Assembly: GCF_036014215.1 (NCBI RefSeq)
Contig: NZ_CP107921.1
Coordinates: forward strand, 1,993,501 to 2,057,500
DNA length: 64,000 bases
DNA from: Streptomyces sp. NBC_00440
GTDB lineage: Bacteria; Actinomycetota; Actinomycetes; Streptomycetales; Streptomycetaceae
Reading direction: 5' to 3'
Shown: positions 44,642 to 57,522 of the stretch, one piece after another
Position numbering within the stretch: position 1 is the first letter of the stretch
Layout: each line of letters begins with the position of its first letter
Notes under the pieces: generated by a model
The model's database searches: none
Told to the model about the DNA's origin: nothing
The model's input: only the letters and a program-made list of their open reading frames with translations
Made by a program: the position numbers and the translations under genes

Positions 44642-45328
44642 TCAGCCACCGTCCGGGCGGGCCCCGATGCCGCGGAGTACCTGGTCCACACAGGTATCGG
44701 CGAAGGCGTGGGTGAGCGGATTGGTGCGCTGGAGCCAGCGGTGGGTGAGCGGCCCGACCAGCATCTCCACGGCGATCCGGATGTCCACGTCCGCGCCGAT
44801 CTGCCCGGCGGCGACGGCGGACCGCAGCCGCTCCTCGTACAGCCCGAGGGCCGGTTCGAGCAGCTCGCGGGTGAAGCGCCTGCCGAGTTCCGGATCGGTG
44901 CACCCGGCCGCCGTCAGGGCGCGGGTGGACGCCTCGTACTTCTCGTCGTTGAACTGGTCGACGGTGAGCCGCAGCACATGCTTGAGGTCGGCCGCGATGT
45001 CCCCGGTGTCGGGGAAGCCGCTCCACGCGCCCTCGGTCTCGGCGTCCCCGGCGAGGGCGAGGGACGCGTCGAGCAGAACGGCCGCCTTCGAGGGCCACCA
45101 GCGGTAGATCGTCTGCTTCCCCACTCCGGCCCGGGCAGCGATGGCCTCGATGGTCAGCTTGTTGTAGCCGGCCTCCGAGACCAGGGAGAGCGCCGCGTCG
45201 AGGATCGCCCGGCGTGAGCGTTCGCTGCGGCGGGTGGCGTCCGGAGCCCTCGTGGGCCGGGCGGCGGGCGGGTCTCCGGGCTGGTGTCCGGCGGGCGGCT
45301 TCGCTGCGGGGGACGGGGAGTCGGCCAT
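44642..45328 (-). CDS. TetR-family regulator facing the DDAH-type gene
   Basis: A 228-aa TetR-type repressor. A disordered Pro/Ala-rich N terminus (about 40 aa) precedes the helix-turn-helix (LTIEAIAARAGVGKQTIYRWW); the ligand domain is of the TetR_C_11-like kind (HVLRLTVDQFNDEKYEAS). I chose the ATG at 45328 because the sequence upstream is not protein-like. A dyad GATAC-N11-GTATC (45356-45376) sits 28 nt upstream of the start and is its probable operator. Divergent from the dimethylargininase-like gene, which it may also control. Confidence 0.9.
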   Translation of the reverse strand: MADSPSPAAKPPAGHQPGDPPAARPTRAPDATRRSERSRRAILDAALSLVSEAGYNKLTIEAIAARAGVGKQTIYRWWPSKAAVLLDASLALAGDAETEGAWSGFPDTGDIAADLKHVLRLTVDQFNDEKYEASTRALTAAGCTDPELGRRFTRELLEPALGLYEERLRSAVAAGQIGADVDIRIAVEMLVGPLTHRWLQRTNPLTHAFADTCVDQVLRGIGARPDGG

Positions 45329-49031: not shown

Positions 49032-50258
49032 TCAGGCGTGCTGGAAGGCGAGCACGGCGTTGTGCCCGCCGAAGCCGAAGGAGTGGCTGACCGCGCGCGA
49101 CACCCGTACCCTGCGGGGCTGTTTGGTCACACAGTCGATGTCGAACTCCGGTGCGGGGGCGGTCAGATTGGCGACCGGCGGTACGAGTCCGTGCTGGAGG
49201 GTGAGGACGGTCAGCCCGGCCTCGATGGCGCCCGCCGCGCCCATGCAGTGACCGAGCACACCCTTGGGCGCGGTCACCGGGGGCCGGTGCGGGTAGGCGC
49301 GGGCGATCAGCCCCGCCTCGGCGGCGTCGTTGAGCAGGGTCGATGTGCCGTGGGCGTTGACATGGCCGACGTCCGCCGCGCACCATCCCGCGTCGCGCAG
49401 CGCCGCGTCCACCGCGGCCCGGGCGACGGAGCCGTCGGGCCGGGGGCTGGTCGGGTGGTACGCGTCGGTGGTGGCGCCGGTTCCGGCCAGCAGGGCGCGC
49501 GGGGCGACGTTCCGGGCCAGCGCGTCGGCCTCCCGCTCCAGGACCATGACGGCGGCGCCCTCCCCCATCACGAGACCGCGCCGGTCGGCCGCGAACGGGC
49601 GGCTGATGGCCGGGGGTTCCTCCCCCGCCCGCATCGCACCGGCCCCCGACCGCGCGAACCCGGTCAGGGCCAGCCGGTCGATGATCGATTCGGTGGCGCC
49701 CGCGAGGGCGATGTCGCACTGCCCGGTGACCAGCAGATCGCGCGCCACCGACAGCGCGGTGGCGCCGGACGAACATGCCGTGCAGGGCGCCAGGCTCGGC
49801 CCGGTGGTCCGCAGCCGGATGGCGACCTCGGCGGCCGCCATGTTGGGGACGGTGAGCAGGGTACCCAGGGGCGAGGTCGCCTCGGGCCCCCGGTTCGTCA
49901 GGGCGACCGACTGCTCGTACAGCCCGGTCGAACCCGCACTGCTGGTCCCGATGACGACGGCGACCCGGGTGCCGTCCCAGCCGGCCGGGGAGAGACCGGC
50001 GTCGGCGACGGCCTCCTCGGCGGCGAGCACCGCGAACCTGACGTAGCGTCCCATGCGGTAGACGGTCCGGCCACCGACGGCGTCCGCCAGGTCGATTCCG
50101 GTGACCTGACAGGCGAAGTCGATGGCGCAGCCGTCCAGTTCGGGAACGGTACGGGCCGTGGAGCGGCCCGCACACACACCCCGCCAGGTGGATTCCGTGT
50201 CGTTGCCGGCCGGGGTGATCATGCCCAGGCCGGTGATGGCGACAGGAGGAAGCGTCAT
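49032..50258 (-). CDS. Beta-ketoacyl-ACP synthase II (FabF-like), second of the cassette
   Basis: A 408-aa condensing enzyme that extends an acyl-ACP with malonyl-ACP. The full Cys-His-His triad is present: Cys162 in TACSSGAT, His303 in NAHGTST and His337 in KGVLGHCMG, and the C terminus has HSFGFGGHN. It is therefore a catalytic KS and not a chain-length factor. The start at 50258 overlaps the ACP stop by 4 nt (ATGA), so ACP and KS are made together. A frame extending upstream to 50546 is only the ACP region read in another frame. It ends the cassette. Confidence 0.93.
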   Translation of the reverse strand: MTLPPVAITGLGMITPAGNDTESTWRGVCAGRSTARTVPELDGCAIDFACQVTGIDLADAVGGRTVYRMGRYVRFAVLAAEEAVADAGLSPAGWDGTRVAVVIGTSSAGSTGLYEQSVALTNRGPEATSPLGTLLTVPNMAAAEVAIRLRTTGPSLAPCTACSSGATALSVARDLLVTGQCDIALAGATESIIDRLALTGFARSGAGAMRAGEEPPAISRPFAADRRGLVMGEGAAVMVLEREADALARNVAPRALLAGTGATTDAYHPTSPRPDGSVARAAVDAALRDAGWCAADVGHVNAHGTSTLLNDAAEAGLIARAYPHRPPVTAPKGVLGHCMGAAGAIEAGLTVLTLQHGLVPPVANLTAPAPEFDIDCVTKQPRRVRVSRAVSHSFGFGGHNAVLAFQHA

Positions 50259-50518
50259 CGGGCGCCGGCCGCGGTGGATGCGGTGGATGCGGTGGATGCG
50301 GTCAGGAACTCGCTGATCCGGCCGAGCGTGGCTCCCTTGTAGGCGGTGTCGGCGTCGGCGTCGACACCGAGGGTCTCCTTGACGATGACCCCGAGCTCCG
50401 CGACGGCGAGGGAGTCCATCTCCAGGTCGTCCATGGTGGCCTCGGGGCGGAGTTCGACGGCGGGGACCTTGAAGGTGTTGGTCAGGACGTCGACAAGGGT
50501 CGGGTGCAGCTCGGACAT
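50255..50518 (-). CDS. Discrete acyl carrier protein
   Basis: An 87-aa four-helix ACP. The phosphopantetheine site is Ser36 in DDLEMDSLAVAELG, and the second helix continues VIVKETLGVDAD. It carries the growing chain for the neighbouring ketosynthases and for the oxidase. The start at 50518 (MSELHPTLVDV) has AAGGGGAA upstream; a second ATG 15 nt earlier is possible. The C-terminal tail TASTASTASTAAGAR is coded by a 9-bp tandem repeat (50271-50302) and is not part of the ACP fold. It begins a separate transcription unit with the KS at 49032. Confidence 0.93.
   Translation of the reverse strand: MSELHPTLVDVLTNTFKVPAVELRPEATMDDLEMDSLAVAELGVIVKETLGVDADADTAYKGATLGRISEFLTASTASTASTAAGAR
50271..50302 (-). 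repeat. 9-bp tandem repeat coding the ACP tail
   Basis: Three full copies and a partial fourth copy of GCGGTGGAT (plus strand). Each unit adds three residues (Thr-Ala-Ser) in frame, so copy-number changes would only lengthen or shorten the tail. Confidence 0.85.
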
Positions 50519-50547
50519 GACATTCCCCTTCATTCAAAGCGGACATA

Positions 50548-50600
50548 CCTACAGAACAGACCCACAGAACAGGCCTGCAAAAATGGACCTACAAAACAGA
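50548..50600 (-). repeat. Four imperfect 13-14-bp tandem repeats in front of the ACP gene
   Basis: On the plus strand: CCTACAGAACAGA (50548-50560), CCCACAGAACAGG (50561-50573), CCTGCAAAAATGGA (50574-50587), CCTACAAAACAGA (50588-50600). They lie 30-82 nt upstream of the ACP start, in a non-coding, unusually A-rich patch. They could be stacked protein-binding sites or a remnant of slippage. Confidence 0.7.
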
Positions 50601-50634
50601 CTGAATACGGATGAATCGCATCCCATAGATATCG

Positions 50635-50649
50635 GTCCAACGGTTGGAC
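50635..50649. promoter_or_regulatory. Perfect 15-bp palindrome in the ACP promoter region
   Basis: GTCCAAC-G-GTTGGAC, 7-bp arms around one base, about 120 nt upstream of the ACP start. Its symmetry and place fit an operator for a dimeric regulator not encoded nearby. Confidence 0.5.
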
Positions 50650-50749
50650 GATCTTCCGGTTACGCGGTGACGGAAGGTTTTTTCACCCCGCGGGGACGGC
50701 CGCCGGAAGCCTCTCCGGGCCCACCGGGGCGCGACTCCGCGGACACGGC

Positions 50750-50827
50750 CTAGCGGCAGAAACGGGACAGCACGTGGACCGTGCCCCAGTACGCGACCAG
50801 AACCGCGCGCAGCAGCAGCCGGCTCAC
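50750..50827 (-). CDS. Possible 25-aa membrane peptide coupled to the oxidase gene
   Basis: A GTG at 50827 overlaps the oxidase TGA (GTGA) and opens a 25-codon frame (SRLLLRAVLVAYWGTVHVL...) ending in TAG at 50750. It would form one short hydrophobic helix. The overlap is the same kind seen between real genes here, but there is no other support. Below it, 50519-50749 is the control region of the ACP gene. Confidence 0.25.
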   Translation of the reverse strand: MSRLLLRAVLVAYWGTVHVLSRFCR

Positions 50828-52767
50828 CGCCGCGCCTCCACTGCCGAACGGTGCCAGGGCCCTTCGGGGTCGTCGTACGCCGATGCGTACCCGGCGTCCG
50901 TGACCGGCACATCCGCCAGCCACTCGTCCGGCAGGTCGAACGCCCCGGTCAGCATCTGCGCCTGCCCGGCGATCCGGGCGGCCAGCCGGTCGGTCTCGGC
51001 CGGTAGTTCACTGATGTGACGGCCCGCCATGAACCCCTCGTTCAGCAGATCACCTCCGTGGGGCGCGATGCGCTCCAGGGCGAACAGCCGGCCCAGGGTG
51101 TGCAGCAGTTCCCCGGCGGCGGAGTCCGGCGGCAACGCGTCCGCGGCCGCCGCGACGGCCTCGGCGGCCCGGAGCTGGGCGTGCGCGGTGGCAGCCCGCA
51201 GCGCTGCGCTCGCCCCCGCGTTCCACCGGCCGAGCGCGTCCCCCGGGGCCGCCGCACGCATCCCGGCGCGGGCCCGGTCGAGTTCGACGCACTCGACGGC
51301 GGCCAGCAGCTCCCGCAGGAACACCGGATCGGTCAGTTCACGGCCGGCCGGGTCGGCGGGTGGCCTCGGCGGGCGGTGACCCGACACCATCCCGGCCGCC
51401 GCCTTGGCGTGGATGGCGATGTTGTCGCCCTCGGCGGTGATCGCTCCCTCGATGCCGGTCACCAGCGCGGCGAGGCCGTTGTTCTCCAACAGCCCCTGGG
51501 CGCCGCACCGTTCGCGGCACTGCGTGATAACAACGCGCGCCTCCCAGGTGATCCACGCCTTGGCGACGGCGACCAGCCGCTCGGCCTCCACCCGGCCGGC
51601 CACGCCCGTCCGGTCGTGCACGGTCCGGTCGCGCTCCGTCCGGTCGTACTCCGTCCAGGCGCGCAGGACCGTGCGGTGCAGCAGCGTCATCGCGTACGCC
51701 GTGGCCAGCGCGCCCGCGAGGGGGGCGTAGTGGCTGCGGTGCGCCATGACGGGCACCCGCTCGGATGCCCGTACCCCGCCGATCAGCCGGTGCGATCCAT
51801 GGCGCACCGCCACCGCCAGGGCCGCCCGTACGGACCCCACCGCGGAGGCGCTCATGCTCAGCTTCCCGGCGGTGACCCGGCCGATCGACAGCAGGAAGCG
51901 GCTGCGCCGGTTGACGACCTCGCTGGTGAAGGCGCCCTCGGCGTCCAGCCGGCCCTGCGCCCCGGAGAGCAGTGCCTCGCGCGGGACGAAGACACCGTCG
52001 AAGGAGGTCAGACAGTGGTCGACCGCGCTGCCCATGCGCCGGGGCAGCAGCCTGACGCGTACACCGGGCAGCGGTCCCTCCGCCCCGGTCAGCGCGGTCA
52101 GGAACAGGAAGACGCCGAGGTCCCTGCCGTCGACCAGCAGCCGGGCCGCCACCACTCCGCTCTTGGGGCCGCCCGCCGCACTGGTGTTGGGCATGAACTT
52201 CTGGGCGCCCGCATGCGGGGTGCGCAGCAGGAACCCGTCCCTGGCCCGGTCGTAGTCGGCGGTCGTCTCCAGCGCCGTCGCGTCGTTGCCGTGGTCGAGC
52301 TCGGTACAGAGGAAGGTCCCGATGCGGGTCAGATCCGCGAAGGCGGACAGATCCCGCCGTACGTCGCCGTCATGGTCCAGCAGGCTGCCGAGGAACAGGT
52401 TGTAGTGGATGCCGGCGACCGTGGTCAGCGTGGTGTCGACCGGGCTGAGCCACTCGTGCATGTTGGCCAGCGCCACCGGGTCGGCGGCCAGCCGGAAGGC
52501 GCTGTCCAGCGTGGAGTTGAGGGTCCGCAGCCGCCCGTACGCGAGTCGCAATTGCGCGTCCGGTGCCAGATCGGACCTGCGCCGGAAGGGTTCCGTGGTG
52601 AGGAGCGCGCGCCAGGGGCCGTGGGCGGCCCGGTGGTCGTCACCGAAGAGCACCCGGACGAGCTCACCGCGCACGGCGGAGCTGCCCGCGGTACCGGCAT
52701 CGGCCCCGGCAGCGTTGGCGTCGGTGGCATCGGCGCCGGCAATCGTGGTCAGGGTTTCCGCAGTCAT
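50824..52767 (-). CDS. Acyl-CoA oxidase-like flavoprotein (HxcO-type)
   Basis: A 647-aa FAD enzyme of the acyl-CoA oxidase/dehydrogenase superfamily, clearly longer than dehydrogenases (about 380 aa). FAD/active-site parts are IGTFLCTELDHGND, FMPNTSAAGGPKSGV and, near residue 440, the typical oxidase stretch RCGAQGLLENNGLAAL followed by AITAEGDN, whose Glu is the expected base. The C-terminal helical domain is present. The best analogue I know is HxcO of the CDA cluster, which oxidises hexanoyl-ACP to the 2,3-enoyl (and epoxy) form. The start is 3 nt beyond the upstream KS stop. The Ala/Asp-rich first 30 residues are probably disordered. Confidence 0.88.
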   Translation of the reverse strand: MTAETLTTIAGADATDANAAGADAGTAGSSAVRGELVRVLFGDDHRAAHGPWRALLTTEPFRRRSDLAPDAQLRLAYGRLRTLNSTLDSAFRLAADPVALANMHEWLSPVDTTLTTVAGIHYNLFLGSLLDHDGDVRRDLSAFADLTRIGTFLCTELDHGNDATALETTADYDRARDGFLLRTPHAGAQKFMPNTSAAGGPKSGVVAARLLVDGRDLGVFLFLTALTGAEGPLPGVRVRLLPRRMGSAVDHCLTSFDGVFVPREALLSGAQGRLDAEGAFTSEVVNRRSRFLLSIGRVTAGKLSMSASAVGSVRAALAVAVRHGSHRLIGGVRASERVPVMAHRSHYAPLAGALATAYAMTLLHRTVLRAWTEYDRTERDRTVHDRTGVAGRVEAERLVAVAKAWITWEARVVITQCRERCGAQGLLENNGLAALVTGIEGAITAEGDNIAIHAKAAAGMVSGHRPPRPPADPAGRELTDPVFLRELLAAVECVELDRARAGMRAAAPGDALGRWNAGASAALRAATAHAQLRAAEAVAAAADALPPDSAAGELLHTLGRLFALERIAPHGGDLLNEGFMAGRHISELPAETDRLAARIAGQAQMLTGAFDLPDEWLADVPVTDAGYASAYDDPEGPWHRSAVEARR

Positions 52768-52770
52768 GTC

Positions 52771-53997
52771 TCACGCTCCGCGCTGGAAGGCCAGCACCAC
52801 GTTGTGCCCGCCGAAGCCGAAGGAGTGGCTGACGGCCCGCTCCACCGATTCGCGGCGTGCTTGCTTGGTCACACAGTTCAGGTCGAACTCCACAGCGGGG
52901 GCGTCGAGATTGGCGATCGGCGGGATGACGCCCTCCTCCAGGGTCAGTACGGTCAGCGCGGCCTCGATCGCCCCGGCCGCCGCGAGCGAGTGCCCCAGGA
53001 CGCCCTTGGCCGAGGTCACCGGTGGCCAGTGCGGGAAGACCCGCGCGATCACGTCGGCCTCCATCGCGTCGTTGAGCGGGGTGGACGTGCCGTGCGCGTT
53101 GACGTGCCCGACGTCGTACGGACTCCAGCCCGCGTCCCGCAGCGCCTCCTCGACGGCGGCCTGCGCACAGCGGCCGCGCGGGTCGGGGGCGGTGGGGTGG
53201 TGCGCGTCGGTGGTCGATCCCACCCCGGCGAGCAGCGCCCGCGCCCGGCCCCCTCGCGCCGCCGCGTCGGCGGCCCGCTCCAGAACCAGCATCCCGGCGC
53301 CCTCGGCGATGACGAAACCGTCCCGGTCCCCGGCGAACGGCCTGGACGCCCCCGCCGGGTCGTCGCAGCGCCTCGACACGGCGCCCATCTGCGCGAATCC
53401 GGACACCACGAGCGGCTGGAGCACCGACTCCGCTCCCCCGGCCACCACGACGTCGCACTGCCCGGACGCCAGCAGGTCACGGGCGACGGCGATGGCCGTG
53501 GCGCCGGACGCGCAGGCGGTGGCGGGCGCCAGACTCGGCCCGTGCGCCGACAGCGCGATGGCGACCTCGCCCGCGGCCGCGTTGGGGATCATCATCGGCA
53601 CCAGCAGCGGGGAGACCGCGCCCGGACCTTCGGCGCTCAGCCGCAGGGCGTTGTCGGTGAGAACGGAGACGCCGCCGACTCCGACGCCGATGACGACCCC
53701 CACCCGGCCGCCGTCCCAGCCCGCGGGGTCGAGCCCGGCGTCGGCGACGGCCTGCCGGGCCGCGATCACCGCCAGTTTGACGAACCGGTGCATCCGCCAG
53801 GTCTTCCGTCCGCCGACCGCGGCGTCCAGGTCGACCCCGTCCACGGGACAGCCGAAGTCGACCGGCAGGCCGCGCAGTTCGGGCAGCCGGCGGGCGGTGG
53901 GCCGCCCGGCGCGGACCTCTTCCCAGGTCTCGGCCGCACCGACGCCACCCGGGGTGATCATCCCCAGTCCGGTCACAGCGATCTCGGGTGTCCTCAT
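52771..53997 (-). CDS. Beta-ketoacyl-ACP synthase II (FabF-like), first of the cassette
   Basis: A 408-aa ketosynthase closely related to the one at 49032. Catalytic residues are complete: Cys162 in TACASGAT, His302 in NAHGTSTP and His336 in KGVLGHSLAA; FGFGGHN ends the protein. The start (ATG 53997) overlaps the KAS III stop by 4 nt and the stop is 3 nt before the oxidase start, so KAS III, this KS and the oxidase form one tightly coupled transcript. The two FabF copies probably arose by duplication and may act on different chain lengths. Confidence 0.93.
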   Translation of the reverse strand: MRTPEIAVTGLGMITPGGVGAAETWEEVRAGRPTARRLPELRGLPVDFGCPVDGVDLDAAVGGRKTWRMHRFVKLAVIAARQAVADAGLDPAGWDGGRVGVVIGVGVGGVSVLTDNALRLSAEGPGAVSPLLVPMMIPNAAAGEVAIALSAHGPSLAPATACASGATAIAVARDLLASGQCDVVVAGGAESVLQPLVVSGFAQMGAVSRRCDDPAGASRPFAGDRDGFVIAEGAGMLVLERAADAAARGGRARALLAGVGSTTDAHHPTAPDPRGRCAQAAVEEALRDAGWSPYDVGHVNAHGTSTPLNDAMEADVIARVFPHWPPVTSAKGVLGHSLAAAGAIEAALTVLTLEEGVIPPIANLDAPAVEFDLNCVTKQARRESVERAVSHSFGFGGHNVVLAFQRGA

Positions 53998-55154
53998 GAG
54001 AGCTCCTCGGAGAGTGCGGCCGCGGCGGGCCGCGCAGCGGTGGTACGGGAAGCGGTCGTACGGGAAGCAGTCGTACGGGAAGCGGGGATGCCGTCAGAAA
54101 CAGCTGAGCCAGCAGCAGAGGCGGCTGACCGGGCGGAGGCGGCAGAAGCAGCTGACCCGCCGGCAGCGGCGGCCGGACCGGCCCAGCGCAGCGCCGCCGA
54201 CCCCCAGGTCAGACCGCCGCCGAAGGCGGTCAGCAGTACGCGGTCGCCGGTCCGCAGCGCACCCCTGGCGTCCGCGTCGGCGAGTGCGAGCGGAATGGAG
54301 GCGGCGCCGGTGTTGCCGACGCGGTCCAGGTGGGTCACGCACCGGGCGGGGTCGATGCCCAGCCGCTCGGCGACCGCGCTGAGGATCCGGCCGTTGGCCT
54401 GGTGAGGTACGAAGTGGTCGACCTGCCCGGGGTCCCAGTCCAGCTTGGCGAGGAGGGTCCGGCAGGAGGCGGTCATCCGCTCGACGGCCTGCTGGTAGAC
54501 GGCTCCGCCGCGCATCCGGAAGTAGCCGTCGCCCGGCGCTGCGGGTCCCCGCGCGGACCGCGCCCGCGAGCCGCCGCCCGCCACGGTGATCAGGTCGTGT
54601 CCGGTGCCGTCGCTGCCCAGGTCGAAGCCGAGCAGCTCCCCGGGGGCTCCGGCGGGCCCCGCCGCGACCAGCGCGGCCCCCGCGCCGTCGCCGAAGACGA
54701 CCCCGGACCTGTGGTCGTCCGGGTCGAGCCAGCCGGAGTACGTGTCGGCGCCGGCCAGCAGGACACGCTCGGCGATTCCGGCGGCCACCAGACCCTGGGC
54801 GCAGGCCAGCCCGTAGATGAAGCCGCTGCACACCGCCGACACGTCGACCGCCGCGACGGAACCCAGGCCCAGCCGGGCCGCGACGGCGGGAGCCGTGGCC
54901 GGACACGGGTGGTCGGGGGTGGCCGTGGCCAGGACGAGCGCGTCGACGCGCGGATGGCCCGCGCGCTCCAGGAGCAGCCGGGCCGCCGCGTACGCCAGGT
55001 CCCCGGTGGAGACACCGGGACCGCTCCGGTGACGGGCCGCGATCCCGGTCCGGGTGCGCACCCAGTGGTCGTCCACACCCCAGTGCGCGGGTAATTCGTC
55101 GTTGGTCACGCGCCACGGCGGCACCCACCCGGCCACCGACTCGACCAGAGCCAC
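53994..55154 (-). CDS. Beta-ketoacyl-ACP synthase III (FabH-like), cassette starter enzyme
   Basis: A 386-aa KAS III that would condense an acyl-CoA starter with malonyl-ACP. The triad is intact: Cys109 (VSAVCSGFIYG), His251 (FVPHQANGR) and Asn281 (VGNTGAASIP). The FabH fold ends near residue 325; the remaining 60 residues are Ala/Ser/Thr-rich and contain a five-residue repeat (ASRTT, three times) coded by a 15-bp DNA repeat. Such a tail is not normal for FabH. GTG start with AGGGGGG upstream. It is the first gene of the cassette. FabH homologues outside the primary fatty-acid operon usually serve secondary metabolism. Confidence 0.93.
   Translation of the reverse strand: MALVESVAGWVPPWRVTNDELPAHWGVDDHWVRTRTGIAARHRSGPGVSTGDLAYAAARLLLERAGHPRVDALVLATATPDHPCPATAPAVAARLGLGSVAAVDVSAVCSGFIYGLACAQGLVAAGIAERVLLAGADTYSGWLDPDDHRSGVVFGDGAGAALVAAGPAGAPGELLGFDLGSDGTGHDLITVAGGGSRARSARGPAAPGDGYFRMRGGAVYQQAVERMTASCRTLLAKLDWDPGQVDHFVPHQANGRILSAVAERLGIDPARCVTHLDRVGNTGAASIPLALADADARGALRTGDRVLLTAFGGGLTWGSAALRWAGPAAAAGGSAASAASARSAASAAGSAVSDGIPASRTTASRTTASRTTAARPAAAALSEELS
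54036..54080 (-). repeat. 15-bp tandem repeat coding the KAS III tail
   Basis: Three near-identical 15-bp units (54036-54050, 54051-54065, 54066-54080; plus strand AGCGGTSGTACGGGA, the third with one more change). Units are in frame and give ASRTT repeats. Confidence 0.85.
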
Positions 55155-55160
55155 CCCGTC

Positions 55161-55209
55161 CCCCCTCGTCCGTACGCTGTCTGCGGCAGCAGAACGGCTT
55201 ACGAGGGGG
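55161..55209. promoter_or_regulatory. Inverted repeat in the promoter region of the KAS III operon
   Basis: CCCCCTCGT (55161-55169) and ACGAGGGGG (55201-55209), perfect 9-bp arms with 31 nt between, directly upstream of the KAS III start. May be an operator pair or an mRNA hairpin in the leader; the rest of the gap to 55346 is unremarkable. Confidence 0.35.
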
Positions 55210-55346
55210 AAGGGTTTCGCAGCACGGGGCCGAACGGGTGGCCCTTGGTCAGCCGTTCGAACCGCGTCCGTACACCGCCATGACCTGCGACGCTTCGATA
55301 CGGACCGGCCGGGCGGCCGAAGCGGCGCACCGCCGCACCCGGGTGT

Positions 55347-56633
55347 CTACAGTGTTGCCGCCACCGCGGGCGCCCTGCGCTGCCACGGCCGGCACAGCAC
55401 CAGGAAGCAGGTCATCGCGCCCAGCCCGCACACCAGTTGGACCACGGCCATCGGGGCGGCCGTCGCCTCGCCCGCGATGCCGACCAGCGGGGACGCCACC
55501 GCGCCGAGCAGGAAGGTGGAGCTGCCGAGCAGCGCCGAGGCCGATCCCGCGGCGTGCGGGGTGCGCATCAGCGCCTGCGCGTTGGTGTTCGGCATGGCCA
55601 GGCCCATCGCCGACATCAGGACGAAGAGCCCGGCGGCGATCGGGAAGAGGCCGACGTGGCCGAAGACCCCGGATGTCATCAGCAGCAGCGCCGTGGCGGC
55701 GAGTGTGATGACCATCAGCCCGAAACCGAGCGCCTTGTCCAGGCTGACCCGGCCGACGAGCAGCTTGCCGTTGATCTGGCCGACCGCGACCAGACCGACC
55801 GAGTTGATCCCGAAGAGCAGGCTGAACATCTGCGGCGACGCCCCGTAGATGTCCTGCACGACGAAGGGCGAAGCGGAGATGTACGCGAAGAGCGCCCCGA
55901 AGGCGAGACCCCCGGCGAGCAGATAGCCGGTGAAGACCCGGTCGGCGATGAGCGTGCGCATGGTCCGCAGCGCGTGGCCCACACCGCCGGTGTGCCGCCG
56001 CTCGGGCGGCAGCGTTTCGTGCAGCCACTTCCACACCACGAGGGTGAGCAGCGAGCCGACCACGGTGAGCAGGACGAAGACTCCGCGCCAGTCGGTGATC
56101 TGGAGGATCTGGCCGCCGATGAGCGGGGCGACGATCGGGGCGACGCCGGAGATCAGCATCAGCGTGGAGAAGAACCGCGCCATCTCCAGACCGTCGTAGA
56201 GATCGCGCACCACCGCACGGGCGATCACGATGCCCGCGGAGCCCGCGAGACCCTGCAACAGCCGGAAGCCGATGAGCAGTTCGACACTCGGCGCGAAGGC
56301 GCAGACCGCGGTGGCAGCGACGTACACAGCCATGCCGATGAGGAGCGGCCGCCGCCTTCCCCACTTGTCACTCATCGGACCGACGACGAGCTGGCCGAGC
56401 GCCATACCGATCAGGCAGGCGGTGAGGGTGAGCTGAACGGTGGCGGCGGGCGAGTGCAGCGCGTCCGTGACCTCGGGCAGCGCGGGGAGATACATGTCCA
56501 TCGAGAGCGCGGGCAGCGCGGTGAGCCCGCCGAGGACGAGGGTGACCAGGATTCCGGTGGTGCGGGCGACGGCAGGGGCGGGGAGCCCGGTGCGTATGTG
56601 CTCCGGGGCAGAGGTCTTCGGCATGGCCCCCAT
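55347..56633 (-). CDS. Bcr/CflA-family multidrug MFS transporter
   Basis: A 428-aa, 12-helix DHA1 transporter of the Bcr/CflA (bicyclomycin/chloramphenicol resistance) group. Motifs are LSMDMYLPALPEV in helix 1, GPMSDKWGRRRPLLIGM (motif A), RLLQGLAGSAGIVIARAVVRD and ISGVAPIVAPLIGGQI (motif C). The start is either 56633 or the ATG three codons later. It is in the same direction as the fatty-acyl cassette and 192 nt upstream of it, so it could be the export or self-protection partner, although it has its own likely transcript. Confidence 0.9.
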   Translation of the reverse strand: MGAMPKTSAPEHIRTGLPAPAVARTTGILVTLVLGGLTALPALSMDMYLPALPEVTDALHSPAATVQLTLTACLIGMALGQLVVGPMSDKWGRRRPLLIGMAVYVAATAVCAFAPSVELLIGFRLLQGLAGSAGIVIARAVVRDLYDGLEMARFFSTLMLISGVAPIVAPLIGGQILQITDWRGVFVLLTVVGSLLTLVVWKWLHETLPPERRHTGGVGHALRTMRTLIADRVFTGYLLAGGLAFGALFAYISASPFVVQDIYGASPQMFSLLFGINSVGLVAVGQINGKLLVGRVSLDKALGFGLMVITLAATALLLMTSGVFGHVGLFPIAAGLFVLMSAMGLAMPNTNAQALMRTPHAAGSASALLGSSTFLLGAVASPLVGIAGEATAAPMAVVQLVCGLGAMTCFLVLCRPWQRRAPAVAATL

Positions 56634-56769: not shown

Positions 56770-57522
56770 ATGAACACATCTCGGAAGACAGCAGTGGTCA
56801 CCGGCGCGGGTTCCGGCATCGGGCGCAGTGTCGCCCGCACCCTGGCGGACGCGGGCTGGTCGGTGGCGCTGGCCGGGCGCCGCATGGAGAAGCTGGCCGG
56901 GACGGCCGCGCTCACCGGGGGTGAGACCTTCCCCGTAGTGGCGGACGTCACATCCCCCGACGAGGTGGGCGCGCTCTTCGGCGCGGTGCGGGAGCGCTGG
57001 GGGCGACTGGACCTGCTCTTCAACAACGCGGGCATCTCGGGCCCCGGCGGGGTGCCGGTGGAGGACCTTCCGTACGAGGCGTGGCGGCAGGTCGTCGACA
57101 CCAATCTGACGGGTTCGTTCCTGTGCGCGCAGGCCGCCTTCCGGCTCATGAAGGAGCAGGACCCGCAGGGCGGCCGGATCATCAACAACGGCTCCATCTC
57201 GGCGCACGCCCCGCGCCCGGACTCGATCGCGTACACCGCGACGAAGCACGCCCTGACGGGCCTCACCAAGTCCCTCTCCCTGGACGGCCGTCCGTACCGC
57301 ATTGCCTGCGGGCAGATCGACATCGGCAACGCGGCGACCGAGATGACCGAGCGGATGCGCAGCGGCATCAAGCAGGCCAACGGGGAGCTGCTGGCCGAGC
57401 CGGTGATGGACGTGGCGGACGTGGCGCGCACGGTGCTGCACATGGCGGACTTGCCGCTGGAGACGAATGTGCAGTTCGCGACGGTGCTGGCGACGTCGAT
57501 GCCGTACGTGGGACGCGGCTGA
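56770..57522 (+). CDS. Short-chain dehydrogenase/reductase
   Basis: A 250-aa classical SDR. NAD(P)-binding [15 protein letters not shown], the NNAG motif ([12 protein letters not shown]), the catalytic Ser in [24 protein letters not shown] and the YTATK Tyr/Lys pair are all present. The Arg after the second beta strand (LAGRRMEK) favours NADP. The substrate is unknown. The start at 56770 is chosen because the Rossmann fold begins there; upstream sequence is not protein-like. Divergent from the Bcr/CflA gene, so they share a 136-bp promoter region. Confidence 0.93.

Follow-up and report, generated by a model that had tools for sequence, protein, structure and literature searches.

A conserved free-standing Streptomyces gene cassette combining a small fatty-acid synthase set, an Aco-related acyl-CoA oxidase and a microprotein

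Gene content of the cassette

The window analysed here is a 64,000-nucleotide stretch of Streptomyces sp. NBC_00440 (contig NZ_CP107921.1, positions 1,993,501 to 2,057,500), and its positions 49032 to 55154 hold a minus-strand gene cassette for acyl-chain building and acyl oxidation. Read along that strand, the cassette encodes a β-ketoacyl-acyl carrier protein synthase III (KAS III, here FabH), a first ketosynthase (KS1), an acyl-CoA oxidase (ACOX), an acyl carrier protein (ACP) and a second ketosynthase (KS2). The initial annotation had assigned five genes to these positions and this strand, and family scans back each of them; its picture of the five as one operon has to be revised, since it missed a microprotein gene and a promoter that divides the set in two. 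The features are listed below, with scores in bits and the family cut-offs in brackets.

55188..55219, minus strand: conserved block upstream of FabH (GAAACCCTTCCCCCTCG...CCGTTCTG), with strong conservation to 55320, from six sequences of the window clade
53994..55154, minus strand: KAS III (FabH-like), 386 amino acids; NCBIfam PRK09352, 332.1 (249)
52771..53997, minus strand: KS1, KAS II type; PRK07314, 414.8 (387)
50824..52767, minus strand: ACOX, 647 amino acids, of the oxidase group that includes the Aco type; Pfam ACOX_C_alpha1, 68.3 (27), and ACOX, 42.0 (22.1)
50750..50827, minus strand: microprotein gene, 25 codons and a stop, with a GTGA overlap with the ACOX stop codon
50638..50664, minus strand: promoter boxes of the extracytoplasmic function (ECF) type, CGTAAC-N16-CGTTG, between the microprotein and ACP genes
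50255..50518, minus strand: ACP, 87 amino acids; PP-binding, 37.3 (20.8)
49032..50258, minus strand: KS2, KAS II type and a paralogue of KS1; PRK07314, 363.4, below the cut-off of 387

The active sites are intact in FabH (Cys, HQAN, GNTGA) and in both KS1 and KS2 (TAC-SG, HGTST, GVLGH), as is the DSL motif of the ACP. KS2 starts at 50258, in an ATGA overlap with the ACP stop, and not at the open-frame start at 50546. The FabH start codon is conserved and is ATG in L003, a related locus; the window FabH has a C-terminal low-complexity extension rich in Ala, Ser and Thr (53994-54180) that is shorter in L003. ACOX meets the acyl-CoA oxidase family by PF22924 and PF01756, both over cut-off, and the NCBIfam scan returned no match for it. 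A duplication within the lineage of the cassette gave rise to KS1 and KS2 (ultrafast bootstrap 100). The Cys-His-His residues are kept in all 104 ketosynthase rows (63 and 41) that passed the filter; judged from sequence, the two are not a ketosynthase/chain-length-factor pair.

Conservation and genomic neighbourhoods

A scan for related oxidases that covered each species by one genome identified 63 distinct loci, and 51 loci of the cassette clade were taken for comparison, with short search loci and the loci L044 and L047 excluded. At least 9.5 kb on each side is available in 37 of the 51, and many of the loci are close relatives; an example of the closest relatives is the oxidase of Streptomyces sp. 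NBC_01306, which is 98% identical to the window ACOX. A comparison of gene order across Streptomyces, suggested in the initial annotation, found all five genes in the order FabH-KS1-ACOX-ACP-KS2 in 33 of the 51 loci; FabH is absent from eight of the others, ACOX stands alone in eight and two are cut by a contig end. The cassette recurs in three unrelated types of neighbourhood and is the sole part that these share. The window clade is flanked by an exporter gene and a downstream Rsm22-type gene, a flank seen only in this clade among the loci compared; 34 loci (the S. griseus group and kin) lie in the context of a PfkB-type kinase gene, with an iron-siderophore-type ABC importer in 25 loci; and six lie beside a geosmin-synthase-type terpene synthase with two domains. 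The cassette is a conserved, free-standing Streptomyces gene set.

In some members of the clade the oxidase gene stands without its synthase partners, and in the 113-row oxidase tree these oxidase-only rows nest within the cassette clade. Among nine oxidase-only genomes the best match to KS2 at E <=1e-100 is 54% identical and six genomes have none, and matches to the ACP are weak or absent; the synthase genes were therefore lost, not moved. One of these genomes (G065) carries another ketosynthase (54%) and ACP (37%) pair elsewhere. In the excluded loci L044 and L047 (S. prunicolor and S. iconiensis) an Aco-like oxidase gene converges with an opposite-strand ketosynthase gene, accompanied in L047 by an ACP gene, an arrangement that may be a rearranged or an ancestral form of the cassette.

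The genes near the cassette in the window agree with what had been annotated: a Bcr/CflA gene of the major facilitator superfamily lies upstream at 55347-56633, and no assembly line is seen in the window, because both called open reading frames (ORFs) of more than 1000 amino acids encode other proteins, namely GlnE and an AfsR/SARP-like regulator. The closest gene for a short-chain dehydrogenase/reductase (SDR) is divergent and lies past the exporter, at 56794-57522. ORFs of more than 1000 amino acids occur in three of the 51 loci and belong to one protein cluster, of which the scanned member is a glycoside hydrolase of family 32.

The oxidase and its relatives

The EGDN motif is invariant in 77 aligned sequences and aligns with that of yeast acyl-CoA oxidase; its Glu, like that of EGEN, is presumably the catalytic Glu of acyl-CoA oxidases. 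The AlphaFold model of a close homologue has a full acyl-CoA oxidase fold (mean predicted local distance difference test score, pLDDT, 85.3) and matches solved acyl-CoA oxidases with template-modelling scores (normalised to the query) of 0.71-0.78; its best matches in the PDB, 17-22% identical, are eukaryotic members of the family.

In the 113-row tree the cassette clade comprises 82 rows with an SH-like approximate likelihood ratio (SH-aLRT) of 100, and in a careful 50-row tree 22 rows (100/100). An Aco-type clade of 19 rows (support 92, 113-row tree) holds all 14 rows that adjoin a gene for a Cyp17-like cytochrome P450 and an AvaR1-like TetR gene. At L038, the only locus of this type that was scanned, two TetR genes score 203.8 and 174.3 against the ScbR-family cut-off of 150, and the P450 belongs to the Pfam p450 family. 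A third clade consists of six Aco-like Streptomyces rows (L055, L057, L058, L117, L118 and L125), which mostly lack a recognised partner gene next to them. The cassette, Aco-type and six-row clades form one supported group (100/100, 50-row tree), apart from oxidases of a FabH-ACP-KS-ACOX layout. The window ACOX is 40-56% identical (mean 52.5) to the 14 Aco-type rows and 34-35% identical to five oxidases outside the group. An Aco-type oxidase as the nearest relative of the cassette clade was considered and dropped, as the branching remained three-way in the 50-row tree that was built to find the sister clade.

At E <=0.001 the window ACOX has a single other match in its own genome, a second oxidase that is Aco-type in the tree (C1:6570453-6572282; L074:8429-11688 with its neighbour). 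Its gene adjoins one for a P450-like protein, genes for an acyl-CoA dehydrogenase and an acyl-CoA ligase are close by, and the pair of Aco-type oxidase and P450-like protein recurs in the sister genome G259 (L114).

Other combinations of an oxidase with a small fatty-acid synthase (mini-FAS) were seen. The FabH-ACP-KS-ACOX layout occurs at L106, L107, L108, L109 and L064, and at L107 is followed by thioesterase, FAA-hydrolase-type, carboxyltransferase, class IV aminotransferase and SDR genes. Oxidase loci at about 27-37% identity have further layouts, such as acyltransferase-ACOX-KAS III-SDR-KAS III-ACP-KS, and some adjoin NRPS-like (nonribosomal peptide synthetase-like) or very large ketosynthase-containing ORFs. 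L162, L163 and L164 carry genes for an oxidase, KAS III, SDR (a 280-amino-acid ORF in L163), KAS III, ACP and KS, with an acyltransferase in L163, and no NRPS-like match is present in the stretches compared. At L165 and L167 an ACP-KS-ACOX-KAS III set is followed by FAD-binding and myo-inositol-1-phosphate-synthase-like genes (L165 was scanned), an unusual association of lipid with inositol chemistry.

A microprotein gene tied to the oxidase

Aligned relatives of the microprotein are 25-64 amino acids long and share the core VLLAYWGTxSVLxR. Pairwise comparison of 50 distinct sequences gives mean differences of 0.22, 0.14 and 0.45 at the first, second and third codon positions, which match the expectation for a translated gene and indicate coding selection. 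By profile scan the microprotein accompanies 69 of the 82 cassette-clade oxidases and none of the 31 others; the 82 tree rows include duplicate genomes, and after deduplication it is found in 57 of 69. The 13 rows without it comprise the truncated L004, eight rows of the terpene context, three that form one oxidase-only group, and L047. The narrower pattern used for the 51-locus count scored L030 as negative, and the profile scan found the microprotein there.

At 21 of the 51 loci, all of the S. griseus group, the microprotein forms an in-frame C-terminal extension of the oxidase, and 14 of 17 oxidase-only rows retain it; this fusion and co-retention suggest that the two act together. At L032 the microprotein frame shifts ahead of the tail, and at L048:12308 a YWG peptide stands in frame with the ACP start and may there be an N-terminal extension of the ACP. 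No Pfam domain was found in the best 120 of 123 database matches to the microprotein (E <=1), and two of these 120 are named acyl-CoA oxidase.

Promoter and other DNA elements

The boxes between the microprotein and ACP genes fit the sigma-BldN consensus CGTAAC-N16-CGTTGA (PMC2375139), which is matched perfectly in L003 and with one mismatch in the window. Of the 53 cassette loci with ACP, 44 have a looser form, CGTAAC-N16-(C/A)GTT(G/A), in this gap; it is in none of the 14 without ACP. A total of 3740 kb (both strands of 92 loci of more than 12 kb) contains this form 31 times, always upstream of the ACP gene (31/31), while shuffled sequences, which preserve dinucleotides only approximately, gave a mean of 0.3 and a maximum of one. 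PfkB-context loci that have ACP carry the stop codon of the microprotein or fused oxidase gene inside the -35 box.

The 8.68-Mb genome of the strain has five sites of the exact form (the boxes are constant among them by construction of the search pattern) and none of the reversed control. One of the five is the cassette site, and another, with the perfect consensus, lies 153 nt before the gene for a 203-amino-acid response regulator. This regulator has receiver and LuxR-type domains and an Asp54, and its gene adjoins a WhiB-family gene; bldM itself has whiD as its neighbour. By these features the protein fits BldM, which is a direct sigma-BldN target with Asp54 as its putative phosphorylation site (PMC4125116). 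Since the promoter is of the BldN type and chaplins, rodlins and BldM are made during aerial growth under the same sigma factor (PMC4125116), ACP and KS2 are probably expressed then.

Just upstream of the -35 region, at the ACOX/microprotein end, all 53 PfkB-context loci (e.g. L031 and L059) carry GAATCGGTTC unchanged, the 39 with the ACP gene as well as the 14 without it, including those that have lost the ACP promoter. This sequence would encode part of an ESV(R/H)xKA tail; pure protein conservation was rejected as the explanation, because the DNA core GAATCGGTTC retains GTT, a rare codon that makes up 1.2% of those for Val in the training set. The element is therefore at least partly a DNA element. 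The block upstream of FabH is a possible promoter of the FabH-KS1-ACOX-microprotein unit; it differs from the BldN consensus, and scans of other clades did not reveal it.

Proposed pathway and alternative explanations

We propose that the cassette is a free-standing, developmentally timed set for acyl building and acyl oxidation that yields a small 2,3-unsaturated lipid, and we put the probability of this at just under one half. FabH would start an acyl chain, which KS1 and KS2 would elongate on the cassette ACP with a reductase and a dehydratase borrowed from the housekeeping fatty-acid synthase. The oxidase would put a 2,3 double bond in the chain, carried as acyl-ACP or acyl-CoA, and the microprotein would act as its accessory; a C2=C3 double bond in avenolide formation is what Aco has been proposed to introduce (PMC7554373). 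Expression would be divided between two transcription units, FabH-KS1-ACOX-microprotein and ACP-KS2, the second driven by the sigma-BldN-type promoter, and the pathway would be active at aerial hyphae formation. As the product we consider a small unsaturated lipid most likely, perhaps a lactonised one; unlinked enzymes would finish it, and it would not be a lipopeptide starter. A fuller version is more tentative and may well be wrong: a sigma-BldN-controlled pathway, in which the Aco-like oxidase and the microprotein oxidise the chains of the mini-FAS, would supply a signal or surface lipid of the aerial hyphae and constitute a new developmental branch.

Several observations weigh against this proposal. 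The cassette, Aco-type and six-row clades part in a three-way split in both the 113-row and the 50-row tree, and the window ACOX is 46-51% identical to the six-row clade, a clade with no recognised partner in most cases. The microprotein is missing from eight of the nine terpene-context rows, and the fused tail of the oxidase P0040 has no structure in AlphaFold (pLDDT <50), so that the microprotein is not placed on the enzyme. The promoter is absent from all nine terpene-context loci, which account for all nine misses among the 53, and the -10 box of the PfkB-context clade is AGTT(A/G), not CGTTGA. Three of the five genomic sites have no evident developmental gene. No site with two or fewer mismatches lies before the window FabH, and in the window only ACP-KS2 would therefore be under that sigma factor.

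The oxidase relationship invites another explanation, namely that the cassette makes an avenolide-like butenolide autoregulator and that an unlinked P450 and receptor complete the hormone system. Membership of the Aco-holding group at about 52% identity speaks for it, since the published Aco relatives are equally divergent, SnbX being 46% identical to Orf18 and 53% to Aco (PMC7554373) and ScyA1 63% identical to Aco (PMC7670052), and the second, Aco-type oxidase of the genome adjoins a P450-like gene. Its weak point is the receptor: no protein of the genome exceeds the ScbR-family cut-off (best 74.2 against 150 bits), in a scan in which the control genomes likewise had none over cut-off and the two L038 receptor genes passed, and a classical butenolide circuit is for this reason disfavoured in the strain. 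A TetR gene near the cassette had looked AvaR-like by BLAST at L112; the corresponding window gene (44642-45328) differs in its C-terminal domain, scores 42.5 against the cut-off of 150 bits and was rejected. No P450 or receptor gene was seen to recur beside the cassette in the loci compared, the cassette clade is not placed as sister of the Aco type in the 50-row tree, and a search for AfsA, run without a positive control, had no match in the genome. We regard the butenolide explanation as unlikely. Still less probable is that the oxidase is a lipid-catabolism enzyme beside duplicated fatty-acid synthase genes and that the set tunes membrane or storage lipids. The persistence of oxidase-only loci after loss of the synthase genes and the full-length acyl-CoA oxidase fold would suit such a role; however, the cassette order holds across genomic contexts, both ketosynthases are catalytically intact, and the oxidase stands at 17-22% identity to the solved eukaryotic acyl-CoA oxidases, against about 52% to the Aco type. 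Because of these low identities, and because its only other match in its own genome at E <=0.001 is Aco-type, it is unlikely to be an ordinary β-oxidation enzyme.

The initial annotation had held that the set closely mirrors the fab operon of the calcium-dependent antibiotic (CDA), and the cassette could accordingly make the epoxy- or enoyl starter of a CDA- or cystargamide-type lipopeptide whose NRPS is encoded at a distance. The protein classes do correspond, as the CDA genes fabH4, hxcO, fabF3 and ACP encode the same ones (PMC9136287); the arrangement does not, since the order FabH-KS-ACOX-ACP-KS with two duplicated ketosynthases is unlike the cystargamide order of KAS III, acyl-CoA dehydrogenase, KAS and ACP (PMC9136287), which was likewise seen at none of the 27-37% oxidase loci inspected, a subset of the matches. 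Nor do homologous loci lie inside a lipopeptide cluster, a possibility that had been raised with the annotation: an NRPS-like match (blastp with one NRPS query, >60 bits) was found at 0 of the 51 cassette loci. A search of the whole genome for a matching NRPS, also suggested there, found several NRPS loci, one with an open frame of 8024 amino acids about 0.23 Mb from the cassette, yet two sister genomes with the cassette, G023 and G259, lack a close counterpart of this large NRPS: KS2 is 95-96% identical there, and the best-scoring matches to a stretch of the large NRPS are 52% and 42%. The NRPS-free loci and the lack of that counterpart disfavour a lipopeptide role, and we consider starter supply very improbable.

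The proposal of a small unsaturated lipid draws on enzyme families that are each known already; it is their combination, the microprotein and the promoter link that appear to be new. None of the three was recognised in the literature by title or abstract, in a search that left most subscription journals outside, and the terms acyl-CoA, fatty acid, oxidase and griseus are absent from a paper on Streptomyces small ORFs (PMC10654065). If the proposal is true, a dedicated fatty-acid branch is tied to the sigma factor that governs the hydrophobic coat of the aerial hyphae, and a microprotein family outside Pfam, bound to one enzyme, can be named.

Comparison with known systems

Like the cassette, the RedP-RedR-RedQ mini-FAS of undecylprodigiosin biosynthesis is a dedicated set of KAS III, KAS II and ACP alongside the primary fatty-acid synthase. 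Unlike the cassette, it is part of a pigment cluster and, to our knowledge, has no acyl-CoA oxidase partner.

With CDA fabH4-hxcO-fabF3-ACP and cystargamide ctmABCD, compared by their descriptions, the cassette shares a KAS III, a KAS II, an ACP and an acyl-CoA-oxidase- or dehydrogenase-like protein (PMC9136287). The ctm genes differ in that they precede NRPS genes, have another order and include one KAS II, and the description of them names no microprotein (PMC9136287). The likeness to the sigma-BldN regulon lies in the promoter boxes CGTAAC-N16-CGTTGA (PMC2375139), whereas the targets named in the passages on that regulon are a regulator, BldM, and surface proteins, the chaplins and rodlins, with no fatty-acid cassette among them (PMC4125116).

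The avenolide enzyme Aco, with its relatives Orf18 of S. fradiae and SnbX of S. pristinaespiralis, falls in the same oxidase group as the window ACOX, at about 52% identity. The 14 Aco-type rows beside a Cyp17-like P450 and an AvaR1-like TetR gene show the arrangement of cyp17, receptor gene and aco known from S. avermitilis and S. fradiae, which S. pristinaespiralis and S. cyaneogriseus match with counterparts (PMC7554373, PMC7670052). Thus Aco has cyp17 and a receptor gene of the γ-butyrolactone type as neighbours, and FabH, KS and ACP genes were not seen beside the Aco-type loci compared; in the cassette, by contrast, an adjacent P450 and receptor were not seen, and the oxidase is accompanied by its own FabH, KS and ACP, by a microprotein and by an ECF-type promoter. 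If the proposed pathway is true, relatives of Aco, which have been discussed as enzymes of hormone synthesis, also occur together with a fatty-acid synthase of their own.

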